NCBI GenBank assembly: GCA_015664885.1
Contig: DQPL01000086.1
Coordinates: 1 to 37,479 of the forward strand
Reading direction: 5' to 3'
Origin: Gemmatimonadota bacterium
GTDB taxonomy: Bacteria; Gemmatimonadota; Gemmatimonadetes; Longimicrobiales; Gaopeijiaceae
DNA: 37,479 bases
Positions within the stretch are counted from its first letter, which is position 1; each line of letters begins with the position of its first letter. The notes beneath the pieces were generated by a model. The model was not told where the DNA came from, made no database searches, and worked only from the letters and a program-made list of their open reading frames with translations. This document shows, one piece after another, positions 9,976 to 20,887 of the stretch. The position numbers and the translations under genes were made by a program.

Positions 9976-10662
9976 CTACAGCCCCTTCCCCTGAAACACC
10001 GTCCCTGCCGAGCGCTTCAGAACCCGCAGGTCGAAGGCGAGCTTCGCCCATCCGCTCGACTCGGCGTGCATGTAGCCGATGTACGCGAAATCCAGGGCCC
10101 ACTCGTTGGGGCCGTCTTTGACACCCTTGTTGGCTTGCACGAGCCCCGTGAGCCCTGGGCGTATCAGTTGCTTTCTGAAGATCCCTTTCTCGAGCTCCTC
10201 CTAATACCCCTTGAGTGGCCATGGGCGTGGGCCGACGAAGCTCATGTCTCCTTTCAGAATCGAGAAGAGCTGCGGCCACTCATCGAGATAGAACTTCTTC
10301 AGCAGGGCGCCAGCTCTCGTGACGTTCGCCGGGTCGGATTCGATGGGCTTGATGTGTTGGTACTTCTGCGTTTTCCGGATTCTCCTGAACGCATCCATGC
10401 GAATGACCCGGAACTTGGGGAGGTGGAAGATGTCGCCCTCGGTGCCCCGGTCCTCCGTCAGAAAGAAGGGGCCCCGGTGCCCTGGGACGAGCAGCCCGTC
10501 CACCGCGATCCCGGCAAGAATGAGCAGGATGATCGGCGACAGGATGACCAAGAGCAGCAACGAGAACGCGATATCGAAGGCTCGTTTCTGCCATGCGATG
10601 GGGACGAGCTCTCCGAGGCCGCGACCGATCTTCTCGTACCGTTCGACTTCTTCAGCGGTCAC
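9976..10662 (-). pseudogene. Phosphoglycosyl (sugar) transferase interrupted by an in-frame TAG
   Basis: A WcaJ/RfbP-type bacterial sugar transferase, which moves a sugar-1-phosphate onto undecaprenyl phosphate at the inner membrane. The first part (152 residues from GTG at 10662) has the membrane re-entrant helix 'AFDIAFSLLLLVILSPIILL', then the catalytic region FHLPKFRVIRM, 'FYLDEWPQLFSILKGDMSF' and VGPRPWPLKGY. A TAG stop at 10201-10203 follows. The same frame then continues open for 74 codons with clear family sequence (LIRPGLTGLVQANKG, then FDLRVLKRSAGTVFQGKGL) to a natural TAG at 9976-9978. A one-base substitution is enough to explain the break (for example CAG, AAG or GAG to TAG). It lies 27 bases after the BNR gene and is probably the last gene of that transcript. 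Either a nonsense pseudogene, a sequencing error, or a split enzyme. Confidence 0.85.
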
Positions 10663-13868: not shown

Positions 13869-15071
13869 CTATACTGGGACGGCCGCCATGCTCGCGGCAG
13901 CCGTCACGATCTCGCCCTGGCGCTGTAGCTCGTGCGCGGGCATCTCAGGATCGAAAGCGAGATACACACTCTCGCTGACGAGCCTCGTCGCGCCTAGGGG
14001 CGCGCTGTCCGCGTCCTCTCTGTCTGTGACTACATCGAGGCGGCCCGACATCGGGTAAAAACCCTCGCTGCGAAGTTCTCGGACCAGCGCGTCGGGGTCG
14101 GACGCGAGGACCGGCAACAACCAATAGCTGTGGAGCTCGGCGTCGCGAGTCGGCAGGTCGACGTCCGGTCCCAGCGCCGCAAAGAGCTTGCGGCCCAAGT
14201 CGGTTCGTCTCGTGATTGGCGCGTCACCCTCATGGAGCCGTCGCTCGAGCATTGCCAGCAATGCCGAGCACGGCTGGCGACGGATACTCACGAGCAGATC
14301 CTCGTCCTTCACGCTGCGGGTGCGCTGGTGGATGAGCTGTCCATGGTCAACGCGAAGCGCGTCTAGCACAGTAATGAACATGCCGAACAAGTGACGATTG
14401 CACGAAGCCTTGAGCACGCCATACGTCACCAGCCGGCCCAGATATTCGCGGGTGGGTTGCACCGGATCACGGTCCAATATCGAGCGCATGCGCTCTCTTA
14501 GCCCGGCATCCCTCACGCGCGCGAGGCCTCCCCCGATTGCGGTGGCAGTCTTCAACGGGCCGAAAGAAAAGAGGTTGAGGTCGGCCTCGGGTTGTCCCCT
14601 CCATTGCGGGCCTGCGTATGCCTCTGCGCAGTCCTCAATCACCATGATCCCGCGGCGCCGGGCGACCTCGATCGCGGGTGCGACGTCCAATCGGGCGCCG
14701 AACAGATGAGTGAGCACGACGGCCCGCGTACGCGGACCGATCAGCTGCTCGAGCTCAGCGACGTCCCACGCGGTGGTGATCGGGTCGATGTCCAGCGGCA
14801 CAGTCCGCAGGCCATGGTGGCGGGCCACCACCGGCATGTCGGGCACCGTGACCGCGGAGAAGATCACCTCGTCGCCGGGGTCCCACTGCATCGATCGTAG
14901 GAAGAGGTCGAATGCGGAGCGGACCGTGAGGCAGGCGATCGCGTCTCCTTCTTCGGACCAGAGCCGCTCGACCCGGCGCTTCACCGTCTGGCGCCGAGGT
15001 GGCGTGAGGGACGACTCGATTGCGAAGAACCAGTCTTCCCAACTGAAGTCGAAGACCTTGCATGGCCACAT
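13869..15071 (-). CDS. DegT/DnrJ/EryC1/StrS-type PLP-dependent aminotransferase
   Basis: A 400-residue fold-type I PLP enzyme of the DegT family, which usually aminates keto-sugars and sometimes other carbonyl substrates. The PLP lysine is K174 in [15 protein letters not shown], and the PLP-pyridine aspartate is D147 in VIEDCAEAY. The N-terminal phosphate-binding region reads [15 protein letters not shown], and the next segment [17 protein letters not shown] matches the family's 'GDEVIxPAxT' pattern. The lysine region is less canonical than in sugar aminotransferases (usual form SFxxxKxxxxGEGG). Start taken as ATG 15071; the GTG just before it (15074) is equally possible, and no clear ribosome-binding site decides. 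It follows the acyltransferase by 24 bases at the end of the acyl-carrier gene set, which suggests it supplies an amine that is then acylated. That link is inference. Confidence 0.88.
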
Positions 15072-15095
15072 CACGCGTGCCGCCCCAACGCCCGT

Positions 15096-15851
15096 CTAGG
15101 CCGTCGCCTGCTGTAGCGCGAAATACTTGTCCTCGAGCTGGACCAAGCGGTCCGCGATCTGCACGGCGAAGTCACGCGAGCGACGCATGCCGGAGTTCTC
15201 GGACTCAGGCCGGAACACTTCGAAGTCCACGTAGAACGAGTCGCCCCTCTTCGGCACGGTGGACCACCTGTCCTGCCGGTCGCCGCGTAGATACACGCAT
15301 AGCGCGTGACAGTCGGGGATGGAGTTCACGATTCTGCCCATCCCGTGCGCGATCGTTTCCATCTGGATGCGCCCAGTCCGACTGCGGCCGCCTTCCGCGA
15401 AAATGATCGCAGTGTCGCCGCGCGAAACCACGTGCTGGATACGCTTGAGCACCTTCGAGACCTGTTCTCGCTCCCCTCCGCGTACGATCGGGATGCACTT
15501 GGTTGCCCATGCGGCGATTCGGCTGAGCCACACCGAAGCGAAGTTCTGGTACTCCGGCAGGTTCCACGGAACCCAGCGATAGTGGAACACCAACCACCAC
15601 GGCCCACCGAGCGCCCACGTCACCAGAGCCGAATCGACCATGGTGAGATGGTTGGGGCAGATCAGGATCGGCTTGTCGGTCTCCCTGACGAGCCTACGAA
15701 ACCGGCGCCGCAGGTCCCTGACGTTCCTGATGCGATACCGCATGATGACGCTGAGCACGAAGATGGCCGTCGGCACCCAAACAACCAACCACAACCTCCC
15801 GACTTCGCGTTGCACGAAGAGGTTGAAGCGCGTGGCAGCAGGCAGACTCAT
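15096..15851 (-). CDS. PlsC-like acyltransferase (1-acylglycerol-3-phosphate acyltransferase family)
   Basis: A 251-residue membrane-associated acyltransferase. One hydrophobic segment near residues 18-37 (LWLVVWVPTAIFVLSVIM) anchors it. The catalytic HX4D motif is H68-D73 in CPNHLTMVDSAL, and the substrate-phosphate motif is FAEGGRSRTGR (E153-R156), a variant of the usual EGTRS. Family members move acyl chains from acyl-ACP or acyl-CoA to glycerol phosphate or to amines and other alcohols. Here it sits 8 bases after a dedicated acyl carrier protein and before an aminotransferase, so acyl-ACP from this cluster is the likely donor and a noncanonical acceptor is plausible. Length and motifs fit an intact enzyme. 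The acceptor cannot be read from sequence. Confidence 0.88.
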   Translation of the reverse strand: MSLPAATRFNLFVQREVGRLWLVVWVPTAIFVLSVIMRYRIRNVRDLRRRFRRLVRETDKPILICPNHLTMVDSALVTWALGGPWWLVFHYRWVPWNLPEYQNFASVWLSRIAAWATKCIPIVRGGEREQVSKVLKRIQHVVSRGDTAIIFAEGGRSRTGRIQMETIAHGMGRIVNSIPDCHALCVYLRGDRQDRWSTVPKRGDSFYVDFEVFRPESENSGMRRSRDFAVQIADRLVQLEDKYFALQQATA

Positions 15852-15859
15852 ATCGAGGA

Positions 15860-16105
15860 CTAGATCTTGGCCGCGATGAGGGAGACGGCGTCTCCGATGG
15901 TGTTCACGTTGTCGGCGTCCTCGTCTTCCACCTCGATGTCGAAGGCGTCCTCGAAGTCGAGGATGACATCTACCAGCCGCGCCGAGTTCACCTTCAGGTC
16001 CTGAAGGATGTTGGTATCGTCGGTCGCCGACGCCAAGGCATCCTTGTCTTTGGCATAGACACGGATGATTTCAACGATCTTGGCTCGGATCTCACTCTGA
16101 TCCAT
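15860..16105 (-). CDS. Acyl carrier protein with a variant modification site
   Basis: An 81-residue acyl carrier protein: four-helix size, strongly acidic, with helix II beginning at the serine that would carry 4'-phosphopantetheine. That serine is S41 in 'LQDLKVNSARLVDVILDFED'. In most carrier proteins the motif is Asp-Ser-Leu or Asp-Ser-Val; here it is Asn-Ser-Ala, so both neighbours differ. The acidic patch around residues 50-65 (DFEDAFDIEVEDED), which docks partner enzymes, is well developed. It starts with ATG at 16105 behind 'taggagcc'. It lies between the KAS II-like and PlsC-like genes, which argues for a pathway-specific carrier rather than the housekeeping AcpP. Confidence 0.9.
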   Translation of the reverse strand: MDQSEIRAKIVEIIRVYAKDKDALASATDDTNILQDLKVNSARLVDVILDFEDAFDIEVEDEDADNVNTIGDAVSLIAAKI

Positions 16106-16153
16106 GGGCGTGGTGGCTCCTATGAGTTCAATATGGGGTCGTAAAGACTAAGG

Positions 16154-17431
16154 CTAATCGGACCATTTGCGGAAGACCACGCAGACGTTCACGTCGCCGA
16201 AGCCGAAGCCGGCCTTGATGATCGTGCGCAACTCGGGCATTTCCACGACCTGTTGTGGGATCGAAGCGGCATACGGCTCGATCTCAGCGTGCACGTCCTC
16301 GCAGTTGATCGACGGGTGCACGAAGCCACCCTGCAACATGAGAAGGCACGCCACTGATTCCATCGCTCCGGCGGCGCCCAGCCCGTGCCCGATCATGGAT
16401 TTCGTAGACGTGATGAGCGGCAGCGTCTCCGGCGTACACTCCAGAGCTGCCGCCCAGGACGCGACCTCGCGGGGGTCCGCAACGGTCGCGGTAAGGTGGC
16501 CGTTGATGGCGTCGATTTCGTCGGAGGTGATGCCCGCGTTCGCGACAGCCTCTCGGATGCAGCGTCGGACACTAGTCTGGTTCGGCGCCGTCATGCTGCC
16601 GCCCTGCCGGTGTCCGCCGCAATTCAGTGAGCCCCCGAGAAGTTCGGCGTAAATGCGCGCCCCGCGTTGTTCGGCATTCTCGAGGCTCTCAAGATGGAGG
16701 ATTGCGGCGCCGCTGCCCGGAATGAAACCGGCCGCGGTGGCCGAGAGTGGTCGGGAAGCCTTCTCAGGCTCGTCGTTGAACTTTCGGGCGAGCACGCGCA
16801 TCGCGTCGAAACCGGCCCAAATGTAATGGCTGGATCCCTCGCTCCCTCCGCACAGCATGCGGTCGGCCAGCCCGTTCTTGATGCGCTCGTACCCTCCTAC
16901 GATCGCCTCGGCGCCCGTACTGCACGCGCTCGAGTTAGACGTGACCTGGTTGCCCAGCGCGAGCATGCCCGAGACCCTGGCCGAGACACCGCTGCCCATG
17001 ATCTGTTCGACGATCGTGCTACCCATGCGGCGGACCCTGCCGGCGTCCGTCATGGGCACCAGCTTCTCGCCTGCGGTGTCCAGCCCGCCGACGCCGGTAC
17101 CGATCACCGCGCCGGCCTCCCAGTACACGTGGTCGTCCCCGTGCTCCGGTCGCTCGAAGCCGGCATCGGTCCACGCGTCCACGGCCGCGATGCAACCGAA
17201 GCGCTGGTTGGAGTTCATCGCGAGCAGGTCGTCTTCGTCGAAGTATGTTCCCGCGAGCGCGTCCGCGTCTGGCGGCACACCCGCCACCGTGCAGCCGAAT
17301 TTCAATTCCTGCAGGAGCGGAATGTGACGGATGCCGGAAACGCCCGCGCGCAGTGCGGCCTCGTAGGCCTCGAGCCCATTGCCGTTCGGGGCGACCACGC
17401 CCATGCCGGTGATGACCACACGTCGATTCAC
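16154..17431 (-). CDS. Beta-ketoacyl-ACP synthase, FabF/FabB-like
   Basis: A 425-residue condensing enzyme that extends acyl-ACP by decarboxylative condensation with malonyl-ACP. The Cys-His-His triad is complete: C170 in SNSSACSTGAEAI, H312 in INGHLTATVADP and H349 in STKSMIGHGLGAAGA, with the conserved K344. The first histidine motif is INGHLTAT instead of the usual NAHGTGT/SAHGTST, which marks a divergent subgroup. The start is GTG at 17431, overlapping the FabZ-like stop (GTGA), so the two are translationally coupled. Length is normal and no frame damage is seen. Together with the neighbouring carrier protein and dehydratases it forms the elongation core of the cluster. Confidence 0.93.
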   Translation of the reverse strand: MNRRVVITGMGVVAPNGNGLEAYEAALRAGVSGIRHIPLLQELKFGCTVAGVPPDADALAGTYFDEDDLLAMNSNQRFGCIAAVDAWTDAGFERPEHGDDHVYWEAGAVIGTGVGGLDTAGEKLVPMTDAGRVRRMGSTIVEQIMGSGVSARVSGMLALGNQVTSNSSACSTGAEAIVGGYERIKNGLADRMLCGGSEGSSHYIWAGFDAMRVLARKFNDEPEKASRPLSATAAGFIPGSGAAILHLESLENAEQRGARIYAELLGGSLNCGGHRQGGSMTAPNQTSVRRCIREAVANAGITSDEIDAINGHLTATVADPREVASWAAALECTPETLPLITSTKSMIGHGLGAAGAMESVACLLMLQGGFVHPSINCEDVHAEIEPYAASIPQQVVEMPELRTIIKAGFGFGDVNVCVVFRKWSD

Positions 17432-17904
17432 TGCCTGGGCACTCCCATGCCGGAGATGGTTCCTGAGCAGACAACGGTGCCGTCGTCGAGCGTCATTTCG
17501 GCTTCAGACCGAACCTTACCCCGCCGGAAGAACACCTTGTTGGCGCGGATGGTCACGCGGTCACCCGGACTCACGAGGCCCGTGAACTCGACGTTGGCGT
17601 CGGCGAAGAGCGCCAAGGCGTCGAGTACCGCGTCGCGGCCCTGAGCGCGCGCGATCAGGTACAGGCCGAGGCCGACAACCCCGACCTGAGCGAGACTCTC
17701 GAGCAGAATCACGCCGGGCGTCACCGGGCGTCCGGGAAAATGGCCGCGATAGAAATCGTGATCCTCTCGGAAGGTGAAGCAGGCGACGATGTGCTCGTCC
17801 GAGACTTCCAGGACTTCGTCCACGAAGAGGAAGGGCTCCTTCTGGGGAAGCAGCTCGAAGACTTCCCGGGGCGTGAGTACCACGCCGTCAAATTCTTCGC
17901 TCAT
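17428..17904 (-). CDS. FabZ-like 3-hydroxyacyl-ACP dehydratase
   Basis: A 158-residue hotdog-fold dehydratase that removes water from 3-hydroxyacyl-ACP. The active-site helix reads 'YRGHFPGRPVTPGVILLESL' with H55 and the acidic partner E69, exactly the FabZ pattern. The N-terminal 'LLPQKEPFLFVDEVLEV' is also typical. It overlaps its neighbours by 4 bp on both sides (ATGA with FabA-like, GTGA with the KAS), so three consecutive genes are coupled. A second dehydratase of FabA type lies directly upstream. Having both suggests different chain lengths, or that one isomerises as well as dehydrates. Confidence 0.92.
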   Translation of the reverse strand: MSEEFDGVVLTPREVFELLPQKEPFLFVDEVLEVSDEHIVACFTFREDHDFYRGHFPGRPVTPGVILLESLAQVGVVGLGLYLIARAQGRDAVLDALALFADANVEFTGLVSPGDRVTIRANKVFFRRGKVRSEAEMTLDDGTVVCSGTISGMGVPRQ

Positions 17905-18494
17905 TCCGGTTCCATCCTGCCGCCCTTCGATCGCTCGCTCGGGTACGGATAGTCGGAATAGTCGATATCGAGAAAGGCACCGACTTTGGCGCGCTTAATC
18001 GTGTAGATCTCTTCACCGTCCACGAGTACGCGCGCGTCTCCGATGGCGATCGCGGACCCGGACTTGGGCAGGGCCTGGTAGCGGATGATATCGATCTCGT
18101 AGCGCACGAGCTTGTCGTGAGGGCGGATCTGCCCGAAAAACTCTATCTCGCCCGAGCCGAGCGCGCGCCCCGTTCCCAGGGCTCCCCGCCAGCAGCAGTA
18201 GAGGCCGATGAGCTGCCATACCGCGTCGACCCCGAGGCAGCCGGGCTGCACCGGGTCAGCGGTGAAGTGGCACTGGAAGAACCATTCGTCCAAGCGGATG
18301 TCCTTCTCGCCCACGATACGGCCCCTACGTCCGTTCTCGCTCATCTCGACCACGCGGTCGACCATGAGCATGGGTGGCGCGGGGAGGCGGGTCTTGAAGT
18401 CCTTGGGTGCGTCTTCGATCAGACGCCCGTAGGACATGGCCAGAATCTCGTCCTTCGTGAGATGTGGCCGCGCTAGAAACTCCTCGTAGGTCAT
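17901..18494 (-). CDS. FabA-like 3-hydroxyacyl-ACP dehydratase/isomerase
   Basis: A 197-residue FabA-type hotdog protein (Escherichia coli FabA has 172). Signature: LPAPPMLMVDRV, then WFFQCHFTADPVQPGCLGVDAVWQLIG, with catalytic H76 and D90, the latter being the residue that separates FabA from FabZ. GRALGSGEIEFFGQIRP also matches FabA. In FabA the enzyme can isomerise trans-2 to cis-3 double bonds and so make unsaturated chains; whether this one does is not visible. The ATG at 18494 has no clear ribosome-binding site, because the 28-bp end of an inverted-repeat element begins five bases upstream (18499). The stop overlaps the FabZ-like start. The C-terminal tail (YSDYPYPSERSKGGRM) is extra compared with the family. 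Confidence 0.92.
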   Translation of the reverse strand: MTYEEFLARPHLTKDEILAMSYGRLIEDAPKDFKTRLPAPPMLMVDRVVEMSENGRRGRIVGEKDIRLDEWFFQCHFTADPVQPGCLGVDAVWQLIGLYCCWRGALGTGRALGSGEIEFFGQIRPHDKLVRYEIDIIRYQALPKSGSAIAIGDARVLVDGEEIYTIKRAKVGAFLDIDYSDYPYPSERSKGGRMEPE

Positions 18495-18498
18495 TAGA

Positions 18499-18547
18499 AG
18501 GGTGATCGGAAAGGGGGGCGGGCCGCCACCCGTGCTGAAGCACGGGT
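18499..18547. repeat. Left arm of the inverted-repeat element with hairpin
   Basis: The 28-bp terminal repeat (18499-18526) is followed after one base by the hairpin ACCCGTGC-TGAA-GCACGGGT (18528-18547), a perfect 8-bp stem with a TGAA loop. The sixth stem pair is T-A here and C-G in the right arm. Confidence 0.7.
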
Positions 18548-18808
18548 ACCCGGGATGCCACGGCTCCAGATCCTAGGCGTGGCGATGACGCCATAGCCGT
18601 CACTACGGCTAGGAGCCCCAACGACGGAGATGGGGCCGTGCCACCCCAACCCACTCACTCGTCTGTCCATTTCATCTCGGTGTTGGGCACATGGCGGTTG
18701 CGTGGTTGATCCATCGTCTCTCCTCGTCGGACCACCACCTTCGGCGGCGGTGCCCGCTCCGCTACGACTCCTCGTCGTTCCTTGTCTGAACGCGCGCAAG
18801 CGCGGGGC

Positions 18809-18859
18809 ACCCGCGCCGAGGCGCGGGTCGCGCGGCCCACCCCCCTTTCCGATCACCCT
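18809..18859. repeat. Right arm of the inverted-repeat element with hairpin
   Basis: The hairpin ACCCGCGC-CGAG-GCGCGGGT (18809-18828) is followed after three bases by the terminal repeat 18832-18859. Relative to the left arm, the stem differs at both bases of one pair, so pairing is kept, while the loop sequence is free to vary. Confidence 0.7.
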
Positions 18860-18860
18860 C

Positions 18861-19853
18861 CTAAACCTTCCCGAACCGGTAGACGTGCCCTGACCAGGTG
18901 AGGCCTGAACCGACGCCAACCAAAGCCACGTCGTCGCCTGGTTGCCACTCGTCCCAACGCATCGAGACCACGCCCGGTGCACCTGCCGCGCCCGTATTGC
19001 CGAAGTCCACGACGCTGCTGTGGTGGAGCTCCTCGGGGATCTCGCAGCGCTGACATACCGCGTCGAGCATCCTCAAGTTCGCCTGGTGCCCCACGAAATG
19101 CAGGCGCCGGTCGGGGTCTGCAAACTCCTGCTGCAGCTTCTTGAGCACGCGTATCGTCTTCTTGATCGCGAACATCTGGACGGTCCGGCCGTCCTGGCGG
19201 AAGTGCTCGTTGGACCCGATGGTGACCTTGTCCCAACCGGCCGGGCTGCCGTCGATCGAGTTGCCGAGGATCTCGATGCGGGAAGGTACCTTGGTCGAGA
19301 CGACGGCCGCTACTGTGCCGTCTCCCCAGAGTACTGCCCCCGCTCGGTCCGAGTAGTCGACCGAGCACGTAACCGTCTCCGGCGTCACCACCAGCACGAA
19401 CTCTGGCACCGCTTCGGGCCTCATCATCGCGAGCATGTAGAGCGCGACGTGGAAGCTCGTGCACGCCGAGTTGATGTCGAACGATGGTGCTTCAATGCCG
19501 AGTTGTGCAGCTATCATGCAGGCGTCGGCAGGAGACATGGAGTCGGGATTGCAGCTTCCCGCGATGACCATGCCAATGTCGCTCGCCTGGAGCCCGGCAC
19601 GCCGGAGTGCCATCTCTCCGGCGAACTTTCCGGTCTCGGCGTGCGTGTAGTCCGACGCCTCAGCGGCCTGCGTGAAGTCCCGGTTCAGCGTCTCCTTGAT
19701 ATAGTCGAGCGACATCACGGTGCGCCGTGACTGAATGCCGACGCGCTCATCGATCCACCGGGAGTCGGTGCCGATGTCCAGATTGGTGAGGAAGTCGTTC
19801 GTGATCTGGTTCTCGGGATGGAAGTGCCCGAGCCCGTGCAAGTACATGCTCAT
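18861..19853 (-). CDS. Beta-ketoacyl-ACP synthase III-like (KAS III/FabH family)
   Basis: A 330-residue thiolase-fold enzyme of the FabH group, which starts acyl chains by condensing an acyl-CoA primer with malonyl-ACP. Catalytic residues are C131 in DINSACTSFH, H256 in FVGHQANLRML and N286 in DFGNTGAAGAP. The start is ATG 19853, overlapping the SDR stop by 4 bp (ATGA). A longer frame to 19913 adds only an arginine-rich stretch inside the upstream gene. The N-terminal 'YLHGLGHFHPENQITNDFL' and the IDERVGIQSRR segment match the FabH opening (WIxxRTGIxxR). Primer specificity cannot be told. It is the second gene of the set, and an inverted-repeat element follows its stop codon directly. Confidence 0.92.
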   Translation of the reverse strand: MSMYLHGLGHFHPENQITNDFLTNLDIGTDSRWIDERVGIQSRRTVMSLDYIKETLNRDFTQAAEASDYTHAETGKFAGEMALRRAGLQASDIGMVIAGSCNPDSMSPADACMIAAQLGIEAPSFDINSACTSFHVALYMLAMMRPEAVPEFVLVVTPETVTCSVDYSDRAGAVLWGDGTVAAVVSTKVPSRIEILGNSIDGSPAGWDKVTIGSNEHFRQDGRTVQMFAIKKTIRVLKKLQQEFADPDRRLHFVGHQANLRMLDAVCQRCEIPEELHHSSVVDFGNTGAAGAPGVVSMRWDEWQPGDDVALVGVGSGLTWSGHVYRFGKV

Positions 19854-20800
19854 CGCGACAGCCCCGAAATCGCTTCGCCGCCGTCTACGCGAATGATCTC
19901 GCCGTTGATCCACGCGGCTTCCGGCTGCGATAGGAGATAGATCACGTTGGCGACGTCCTCGGGTGTGGTGAGTCGGCCGAAGGGGTTTCGCGTCACCGCC
20001 TGTGCTTTCAGATGCCCGCTTCCGGGGATCATGCGCAGCGCAGGCGTATCAGTGACTCCTGCCTGGATGATGTTCGACCGTATCCCGAAGTGCGCCATTT
20101 CTACTGCGATGGATCGGGACACGGATTCGAGCGCGACCTTGGCGGCGGCAACCGCCGCATACCCTTTCCACGCAACGGTGTTGCCCTCGCTGGTGAGTCC
20201 GAACACGCGCGCGTCGTCGGCGAACATGCCGCGTTCGCGAAGCCGCTGAGTCCACCCGAGCAGGCTCGTGCCCATCGAATGGATGGTGCGCGCTAGGTCC
20301 TCCTCTTCGATGAACGCGTCGGCGGAGTACTCCGGTGCGGTGCTGATGCCTTGCAGGCCGTACACCTGCTGCTCGAAGAGTCCGTCGACGGTTTCCGCGA
20401 GCTGCGGGGCATCGACGTCCATCGCCGCGGCCAAACGCTCCCGGGCGTCGTTGTTGGAATCTGCTTCCGGAGCGATCAGCTTGAGGTTGCCGAACGCGAT
20501 GGAGTGCAACAGCACACGTACTTTCCCGGCGGCGCCGAGCGATTCTGAGAGGCCGTCCAGGATTTCGTCACGTTTGTCCGCGTCGAGCGCGTCGGCGTTG
20601 TATGTGAGCAGGGAGATGCCTCTCGCTCGCATCGCCTCGAACTCAGGCTCTATGCGCTTCATCGCGCCCCTGCGGTCGCGATGTACGACGCAGACGTTGC
20701 AGCCGTGACGAGAGAGCTTGTGCGCCGTGGCGAGGCCGAACCCGCTCGAGCCTCCTAGGATCAGGGCCCACCCGTTCGAATTGGAGTTTGTCGTCGACAT
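19850..20800 (-). CDS. SDR-family enoyl-ACP reductase-like protein (FabI/FabL type)
   Basis: A 316-residue short-chain dehydrogenase/reductase. The cofactor motif is GGSSGFGLA (residues 16-24). The catalytic pair is Y214 and K221 in WKGYAAVAAAKVALES, spaced Y-x6-K, which is the mark of enoyl-ACP reductases; ordinary SDR ketoreductases have Y-x3-K. The strand LLHSIAFGNL resembles the HSIAF motif of FabI, and the end (AAWINGEIIRVDGGEAISG) is a normal SDR terminus. It is longer than FabI or FabL (about 250-260) because of an insertion around residues 105-180. ATG 20800 is used; the TTG one codon before is possible. It probably performs the last reduction of each elongation round. It is the first gene of the coupled block. 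Confidence 0.85.
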   Translation of the reverse strand: MSTTNSNSNGWALILGGSSGFGLATAHKLSRHGCNVCVVHRDRRGAMKRIEPEFEAMRARGISLLTYNADALDADKRDEILDGLSESLGAAGKVRVLLHSIAFGNLKLIAPEADSNNDARERLAAAMDVDAPQLAETVDGLFEQQVYGLQGISTAPEYSADAFIEEEDLARTIHSMGTSLLGWTQRLRERGMFADDARVFGLTSEGNTVAWKGYAAVAAAKVALESVSRSIAVEMAHFGIRSNIIQAGVTDTPALRMIPGSGHLKAQAVTRNPFGRLTTPEDVANVIYLLSQPEAAWINGEIIRVDGGEAISGLSR

Positions 20801-20887
20801 CAAAGGGCGTATTCCCCTGTCCCCAGACGTTTCTGCTAGAGCCTACAAGAATACCCAAGAGGCCGAATTTGGGCTAGGAAACGGGCG

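Follow-up and report, generated by a model that had tools for sequence, protein, structure and literature searches.

We begin by considering the described systems that come closest to the locus of this study. Aryl polyene (APE) clusters contain an acyl-ACP (acyl carrier protein) synthetase, a pair of ketosynthase (KS) and chain length factor (CLF), and export genes (PMC8253772, Table 1), and ladderane clusters contain radical SAM and phytoene-desaturase-like genes, without FabA (PMC2649909). The alkyl-ether-lipid operon MXAN_1676-1674 of M. xanthus encodes an alkyl-dihydroxyacetone phosphate (DHAP) synthase (AGPS), a fatty acyl reductase (FAR) joined to GNPAT, and an NAD epimerase-like protein (PMC9131029). 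Two transaminases, RtxA of Bradyrhizobium (PMC3222319) and Cj1437 of Campylobacter (PMC11800397), convert DHAP to serinol phosphate. The locus that we compare with them is a set of eight genes at 13869-20800 of contig DQPL01000086.1 (all 37,479 nt of which are called the window) from a Gemmatimonadota bacterium of the Gaopeijiaceae (GCA_015664885.1; our G000, 99% complete). With moderate confidence, we read the core of this set as a second type II fatty acid synthase (FAS), self-contained in that it works on its own ACP, which a DegT-type aminotransferase joined later from an ether-lipid gene set. The genes are:

19850..20800, minus strand: enoyl-ACP-reductase-like SDR (ER); ATG at 20800, with TTG at 20803 as alternative; PF13561, 140 bits; best NCBIfam match FabL; dN/dS 0.12
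18861..19853, minus strand: beta-ketoacyl-ACP synthase III-like (KAS III, initiating KS); PF08541/PF08545; Cys-His-Asn motifs SAC/GHQAN/GN; solved FabH relatives
17901..18494, minus strand: FabA-type 3-hydroxyacyl-ACP dehydratase/isomerase; NF003509, 203.6 bits (cut-off 124); 46.5% identity to E. coli FabA; H/D pair
17428..17904, minus strand: FabZ-type dehydratase; PF07977; 34% to E. coli FabZ; H/E pair
16154..17431, minus strand: KAS II-like elongating beta-ketoacyl-ACP synthase (KS2) of a distinct clade; PF00109/PF02801; signature NGHLTAT
15860..16105, minus strand: ACP with an atypical NSARLVD phosphopantetheine motif; PF00550
15096..15851, minus strand: PlsC-like acyltransferase, HX4D; PF01553; dN/dS 0.06, the strongest constraint of all eight genes
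13869..15074, minus strand: DegT/DnrJ-type aminotransferase dependent on pyridoxal phosphate (PLP), of a distinct subfamily, a genus-specific addition; PF01041, 98 bits; Lys175; dN/dS 0.20

Pfam and NCBIfam profile searches bear out the names that an earlier sequence-only reading had given to all eight genes, which lie on one strand as it had described. That reading had also seen mostly 4-bp overlaps; three overlaps are real, and the other four of the seven junctions are separated by 48, 8, 21 and 366 bp. The ratios of nonsynonymous to synonymous substitution rates (dN/dS, by NG86), taken between two species of the window's genus (the window genome and its sister L048), range from 0.06 to 0.20 across the eight genes; this is purifying selection, and the genes are therefore not chance open frames. 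The spacing Y-x6-K of enoyl reductases is found in 38 of 39 ER homologues, and the HX4D motif of the PlsC-like enzyme is kept in 41 of 42. FabA scores above the NF003509 cut-off and below that of TIGR01749, and alignment with the E. coli enzymes gives the H/D pair of FabA and the H/E pair of FabZ, in agreement with the claim that both dehydratase types are present. The window's operon thus has what marks a type II FAS, namely discrete KS, dehydratase, ER and ACP proteins with their catalytic residues.

A canonical fabH-fabD-fabG-acpP-fabF run is located on a contig of its own (C118, locus L015) in the same genome, and the ACP of that run has the ordinary DSLDTVEL motif. The earlier proposal of a special acyl-chain set with its own carrier protein, outside the housekeeping fab operon, is borne out by this separate locus, and the possibility that the operon is itself the housekeeping FAS is rejected. 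The sequence-only reading was prepared to give up its proposal if the genome had no other fatty acid synthesis genes, or if DegT and PlsC were unconserved beside KS and ACP. A full fab set is present on C118; PlsC is conserved in that position across phyla, as had been expected, and DegT is found there in only two of the 18 operon-bearing Gemmatimonadota. A search of viral contigs and plasmids with PlsC gave no relative, and an origin from a phage or plasmid is rejected.

Two proteins set the operon apart from its housekeeping counterpart. The attachment motif of the private ACP is NSxRLVD in all 42 homologues, while the ACPs of E. coli and of the organism's own housekeeping set have DSLDTVE. 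Going by what is generally known of ACPs, docking should be affected when position 38, otherwise acidic, is an arginine, and a docking helix changed in this way may insulate the operon from the housekeeping FAS. The second protein is KS2, which forms its own clade apart from FabF and FabB (support 100/100, branch length 2.24). The tree program flagged long branches that come together at FabB, so that kinship with FabB is no more than possible from the tree; in pairwise BLAST it has 35% identity to FabB and 31% to FabF, which favours FabB. In the same tree, the Gemmatimonadota families f1 and f7 stand together next to Myxococcota; the position of a third family, f5, at another place in the tree suggests that the operon was acquired separately.

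The gene-neighbourhood check that had been proposed across relatives gives a conserved unit of seven genes. Out of 42 non-duplicate loci, 31 have the exact order ER-KS3-FabA-FabZ-KS2-ACP-PlsC, and the remaining 11 are variants or contig ends in which one or more genes are missing. With the FabA protein as the operon marker, 18 of 395 Gemmatimonadota (E<=1e-20) and 14 of 247 Spirochaetota (E<=1e-30) are carriers. In a collection of named genomes the marker is also found in contigs of Marinicella, Myxococcota, Acidobacteriota, KSB1, Calditrichota, Desulfobacterales, Syntrophobacterales, Omnitrophota, Oligoflexia, Spirochaetota and Leptospiraceae. Several Spirochaetota-type loci have no KAS III, a FabG-like SDR between FabA and FabZ, and FabD in front; altogether, FabD precedes the operon in eight relatives and FabG lies within it in five. 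Most loci with enough flanking sequence continue after PlsC with a PF01648 phosphopantetheinyl transferase (PPTase), and acetyl-CoA carboxylase-type genes follow in several loci.

Some of these flanks are worth recording in their own right. A myxococcote locus (L081:14645-20215) encodes, directly downstream of the operon, an 1856-aa protein resembling a fused acetyl-CoA carboxylase, with similar proteins in L072 and L098, and a Spirochaetia locus (L088:14788-15975) has an SAT/FAS-type acyltransferase-like gene and a long biotin-carboxylase-like protein after the operon. The Leptospiraceae-type loci L086 and L096 are without KAS III, have FabD and FabG, and belong to genomes with no other FabF-family match.

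From the gene content we propose how the core operon would work. KAS III would start the chain and the KAS II-like enzyme would elongate it; FabZ, FabA and the ER would process it, and once it is complete the PlsC-like enzyme would take it off the private ACP and attach it to a lipid acceptor. Housekeeping FabD and FabG would have to supply malonyl transfer and 3-keto reduction in this organism, because neither function is encoded in the window's operon. Since a FabA gene is present, the chain likely receives a cis double bond without oxygen, through the predicted isomerisation by FabA. The PPTase for the ACP may be one of the same type, unlinked to the operon, on contig C130 of the window's genome. 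The substrates, the order of reactions and the product are predictions from the sequences, and so is the idea that this operon and the ether-lipid genes supply a joint lipid.

Several observations weigh against this reading. The sequence-only reading was correct that the set has no ketoreductase; the malonyl transferase is also absent from the window's operon, which therefore does not encode a complete cycle and is "self-contained" only in part here. The PPTase that accompanies the operon in most other loci is not found in the operon of the window's genus. The KS2 profile scores are higher for FabF than for FabB, although BLAST favours FabB. The window's genome also contains a PF00487 desaturase-family gene, and within the phylum the presence of a desaturase does not anticorrelate with the operon: 12 of the 18 carriers have such a gene, against 258 of 395 genomes overall. 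These counts give no support to the idea that the operon meets a need for double bonds formed without oxygen.

The seven genes might instead be no more than the classical FabA/FabB route gathered into one operon, making monounsaturated chains for ordinary phospholipids that PlsC places at sn-2. The true FabA, the BLAST kinship of KS2, the PlsC at the end and the many carriers that are anoxic by the names of their lineages (Desulfobacterales, Syntrophobacterales, Omnitrophota) all agree with it. The classical route, however, needs only FabA and FabB on the housekeeping ACP, while this operon keeps a private atypical ACP, KAS III, ER and PPTase together; the carriers are rare in both phyla counted above, and the desaturase counts give it no help. 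We hold this alternative to be doubtful, though with a real minority chance. A somewhat smaller chance is given to the operon being the main or only FAS in Leptospiraceae and some other lineages and a horizontally acquired spare in the window. Three Spirochaetota-type genomes (G433, G434, G437) and G429 have no other FabF-family match at E<=1e-60, and because of these four carriers the operon may be the main synthase in some lineages; the Spirochaetota forms with FabD and FabG inside point the same way. Those genomes, however, are draft genomes (metagenome-assembled) of unstated completeness, the Leptospiraceae form has no KAS III, and the window's genome has its full housekeeping set.

A cluster of the aryl-polyene, ladderane or polyunsaturated fatty acid (PUFA) synthase type, the first two of which the sequence-only reading had offered for comparison, is very improbable. 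The likeness is general, in that extra KS, ACP, dehydratase and lysophospholipid acyltransferase genes stand outside the fab operon, and it fails on the defining features: an acyl-ACP synthetase, a KS/CLF pair and export genes (PMC8253772) are all missing from the operon and its flanks, and there are no radical SAM or phytoene-desaturase-like genes. An enoyl reductase, absent from APE clusters, and a true FabA, absent from ladderane clusters (PMC2649909), are both present, and multidomain Pfa proteins are not.

DegT was taken by the sequence-only reading as a part of the set. It does not belong to the conserved unit, since it adjoins PlsC only in the two genomes of the window's genus. Its PF01041 match (98 bits) and a Lys175 invariant in four subfamily members place it in the DegT/DnrJ/EryC1/StrS fold family; an AlphaFold model from the single sequence had a pLDDT of 43 and was discarded. 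Members of the same subfamily, found with a four-sequence profile and a family search, are present in six other Gemmatimonadota. Of the eight genomes with DegT, six encode full-length AGPS, whereas not one of 72 further genomes does (Fisher p 9e-8); by genus the counts are 5/7 with DegT and 0/38 without (p 1.7e-5), in a sample of 80 genomes whose 72 members without DegT were hand-picked and non-random, with statistics that ignore kinship. The gene order is FAR, AGPS, GNAT, DegT in G062 and AGPS, FAR-acyltransferase, DegT in G380, while G325 has FAR-AGPS against KS, TPR, GNAT and DegT. G113 keeps GNAT-DegT and has beside DegT a 48-residue C-terminal remnant of AGPS (L226:15309-15452), probably a decayed gene. 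In the window's genome AGPS stands beside FAR on contig C106, and its similarity to solved alkyl-DHAP synthases reaches E=2e-119; the two genes together are those of an alkyl-ether-lipid pathway. A further group on contig C59 (L221:6067-11059) has TPR, polysaccharide deacetylase, membrane protein, GNAT and HAD phosphatase genes, followed by PAP2 and GT4; it resembles a glycolipid locus and seems akin to that of G325.

Because DegT co-occurs with AGPS, and elsewhere adjoins FAR and AGPS, it probably belongs to ether-lipid synthesis. It would be a later gain in the genus from an ether-lipid set (FAR, AGPS, GNAT, HAD phosphatase, glycosyltransferase), the other members of which reside elsewhere in the same genome, and the two gene sets would feed one lipid. 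The AGPS and FAR contexts and the known transaminations of DHAP lead us to propose alkyl- or acyl-DHAP as the substrate of amination by DegT, though our confidence in this is low. A longer scheme, speculative and of low probability, has DegT convert the keto group left by AGPS to an amine, giving 1-O-alkyl-2-amino-glycerol (serinol ether) phosphate, which the private FAS with the PlsC-like enzyme, or GNAT, would N-acylate; dephosphorylation and glycosylation would then give a ceramide-like ether glycolipid. To our knowledge, this class of bacterial lipid is undescribed. The earlier idea that the acyl chain is transferred to an amine is a possible one, in view of the tie between the DegT subfamily and ether-lipid genes.

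DegT could also be an ordinary sugar aminotransferase for the amino sugar of a glycolipid, standing after PlsC by accident. Among solved structures it comes closest to perosamine synthases and further sugar aminotransferases, and polysaccharide deacetylase and GT4 genes recur near its relatives. Similarity is limited, however, to the PLP-binding half (residues 43-210), the rest, where the sugar-binding half would be, matching nothing, and the DegT operons of G380 and G062 contain only AGPS, FAR and acyltransferase genes besides; with the AGPS co-occurrence, this leaves the sugar reading possible but unlikely. A GNAT as the exclusive partner of DegT is rejected, as a homologue is present in 45 of the 80 genomes at 1e-20 and only the closest copies track DegT. 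The GNAT copy of G056 is on contig C2 (L224), which has genes 99-100% identical to those of G088, probably by contamination. The suggested link to a downstream phosphoglycosyl transferase finds no support. A bacterial sugar transferase (PF02397) frame at 10201-10662 spans positions 1-110 of the 179 of the family and may be cut short or frameshifted.

The 366-bp gap between KAS III and FabA is occupied by an element outside the system:

18494..18864, no strand assigned: repeat element, 371 bp, with 33-bp terminal inverted repeats (TTAG...CTAA), inserted between KAS III and FabA

Its inner 240 bases recur, with 77-93% identity, at about a dozen further sites in the genome, and the element is related to this multi-copy repeat. 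The sister genome L048 is without the element and has KAS III and FabA abutting; the target was likely of TA type.

We turn our attention to what the locus would mean. The literature search found no published account of the operon, which is weak evidence because most subscription journals were outside its coverage, and neither NCBIfam nor the searchable papers have a name for the system; it is apparently an undescribed variant of type II FAS plus a lineage-specific addition. If our reading is true, an insulated second FAS is broadly but sparsely distributed over at least ten bacterial phyla. Lipid engineering would then have a naturally orthogonal FAS at its disposal, and unassigned lipids in uncultured lineages would have an explanation, with the question of which lipid bears the chains of this FAS. 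The DegT/AGPS link, if proven, adds an amination branch to the ether-lipid pathway.

Compared with the housekeeping type II FAS (fabH-fabD-fabG-acpP-fabF, FabZ, FabI), with which it coexists, the operon has the same enzyme classes and catalytic motifs, as discrete proteins on a carrier protein, but differs by its NSxRLVD ACP, by its distinct KS clade, and by uniting both FabA and FabZ with PlsC and, in other loci, a PPTase in a single operon. It resembles, and may overlap, the FabA/FabB unsaturated route of E. coli in a FabA over the curated cut-off, at 46.5% identity, and in a KS that is somewhat FabB-like by BLAST, while it adds a private ACP, KAS III, ER and acyltransferase. With APE clusters, the ACPs of which use an orphan PPTase, it shares an extra FAS-like set of ACP, KS, dehydratases and lysophospholipid acyltransferase; unlike them it lacks a starter ligase, a CLF, a methyltransferase, a thioesterase and Lol/RND export genes, and has an enoyl reductase and FabA. 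The M. xanthus operon MXAN_1676-1674 and the elb operon are matched by the DegT relatives that lie beside AGPS and FAR(-acyltransferase), and G218 has the order AGPS, FAR-acyltransferase, NAD epimerase-like; the third gene in G380 is DegT instead, and the DegT of the window adjoins the FAS operon, at a distance from AGPS. RtxA and Cj1437, PLP aminotransferases that work on the DHAP keto group, offer a chemical precedent only; the substrate proposed for DegT has an alkyl chain.

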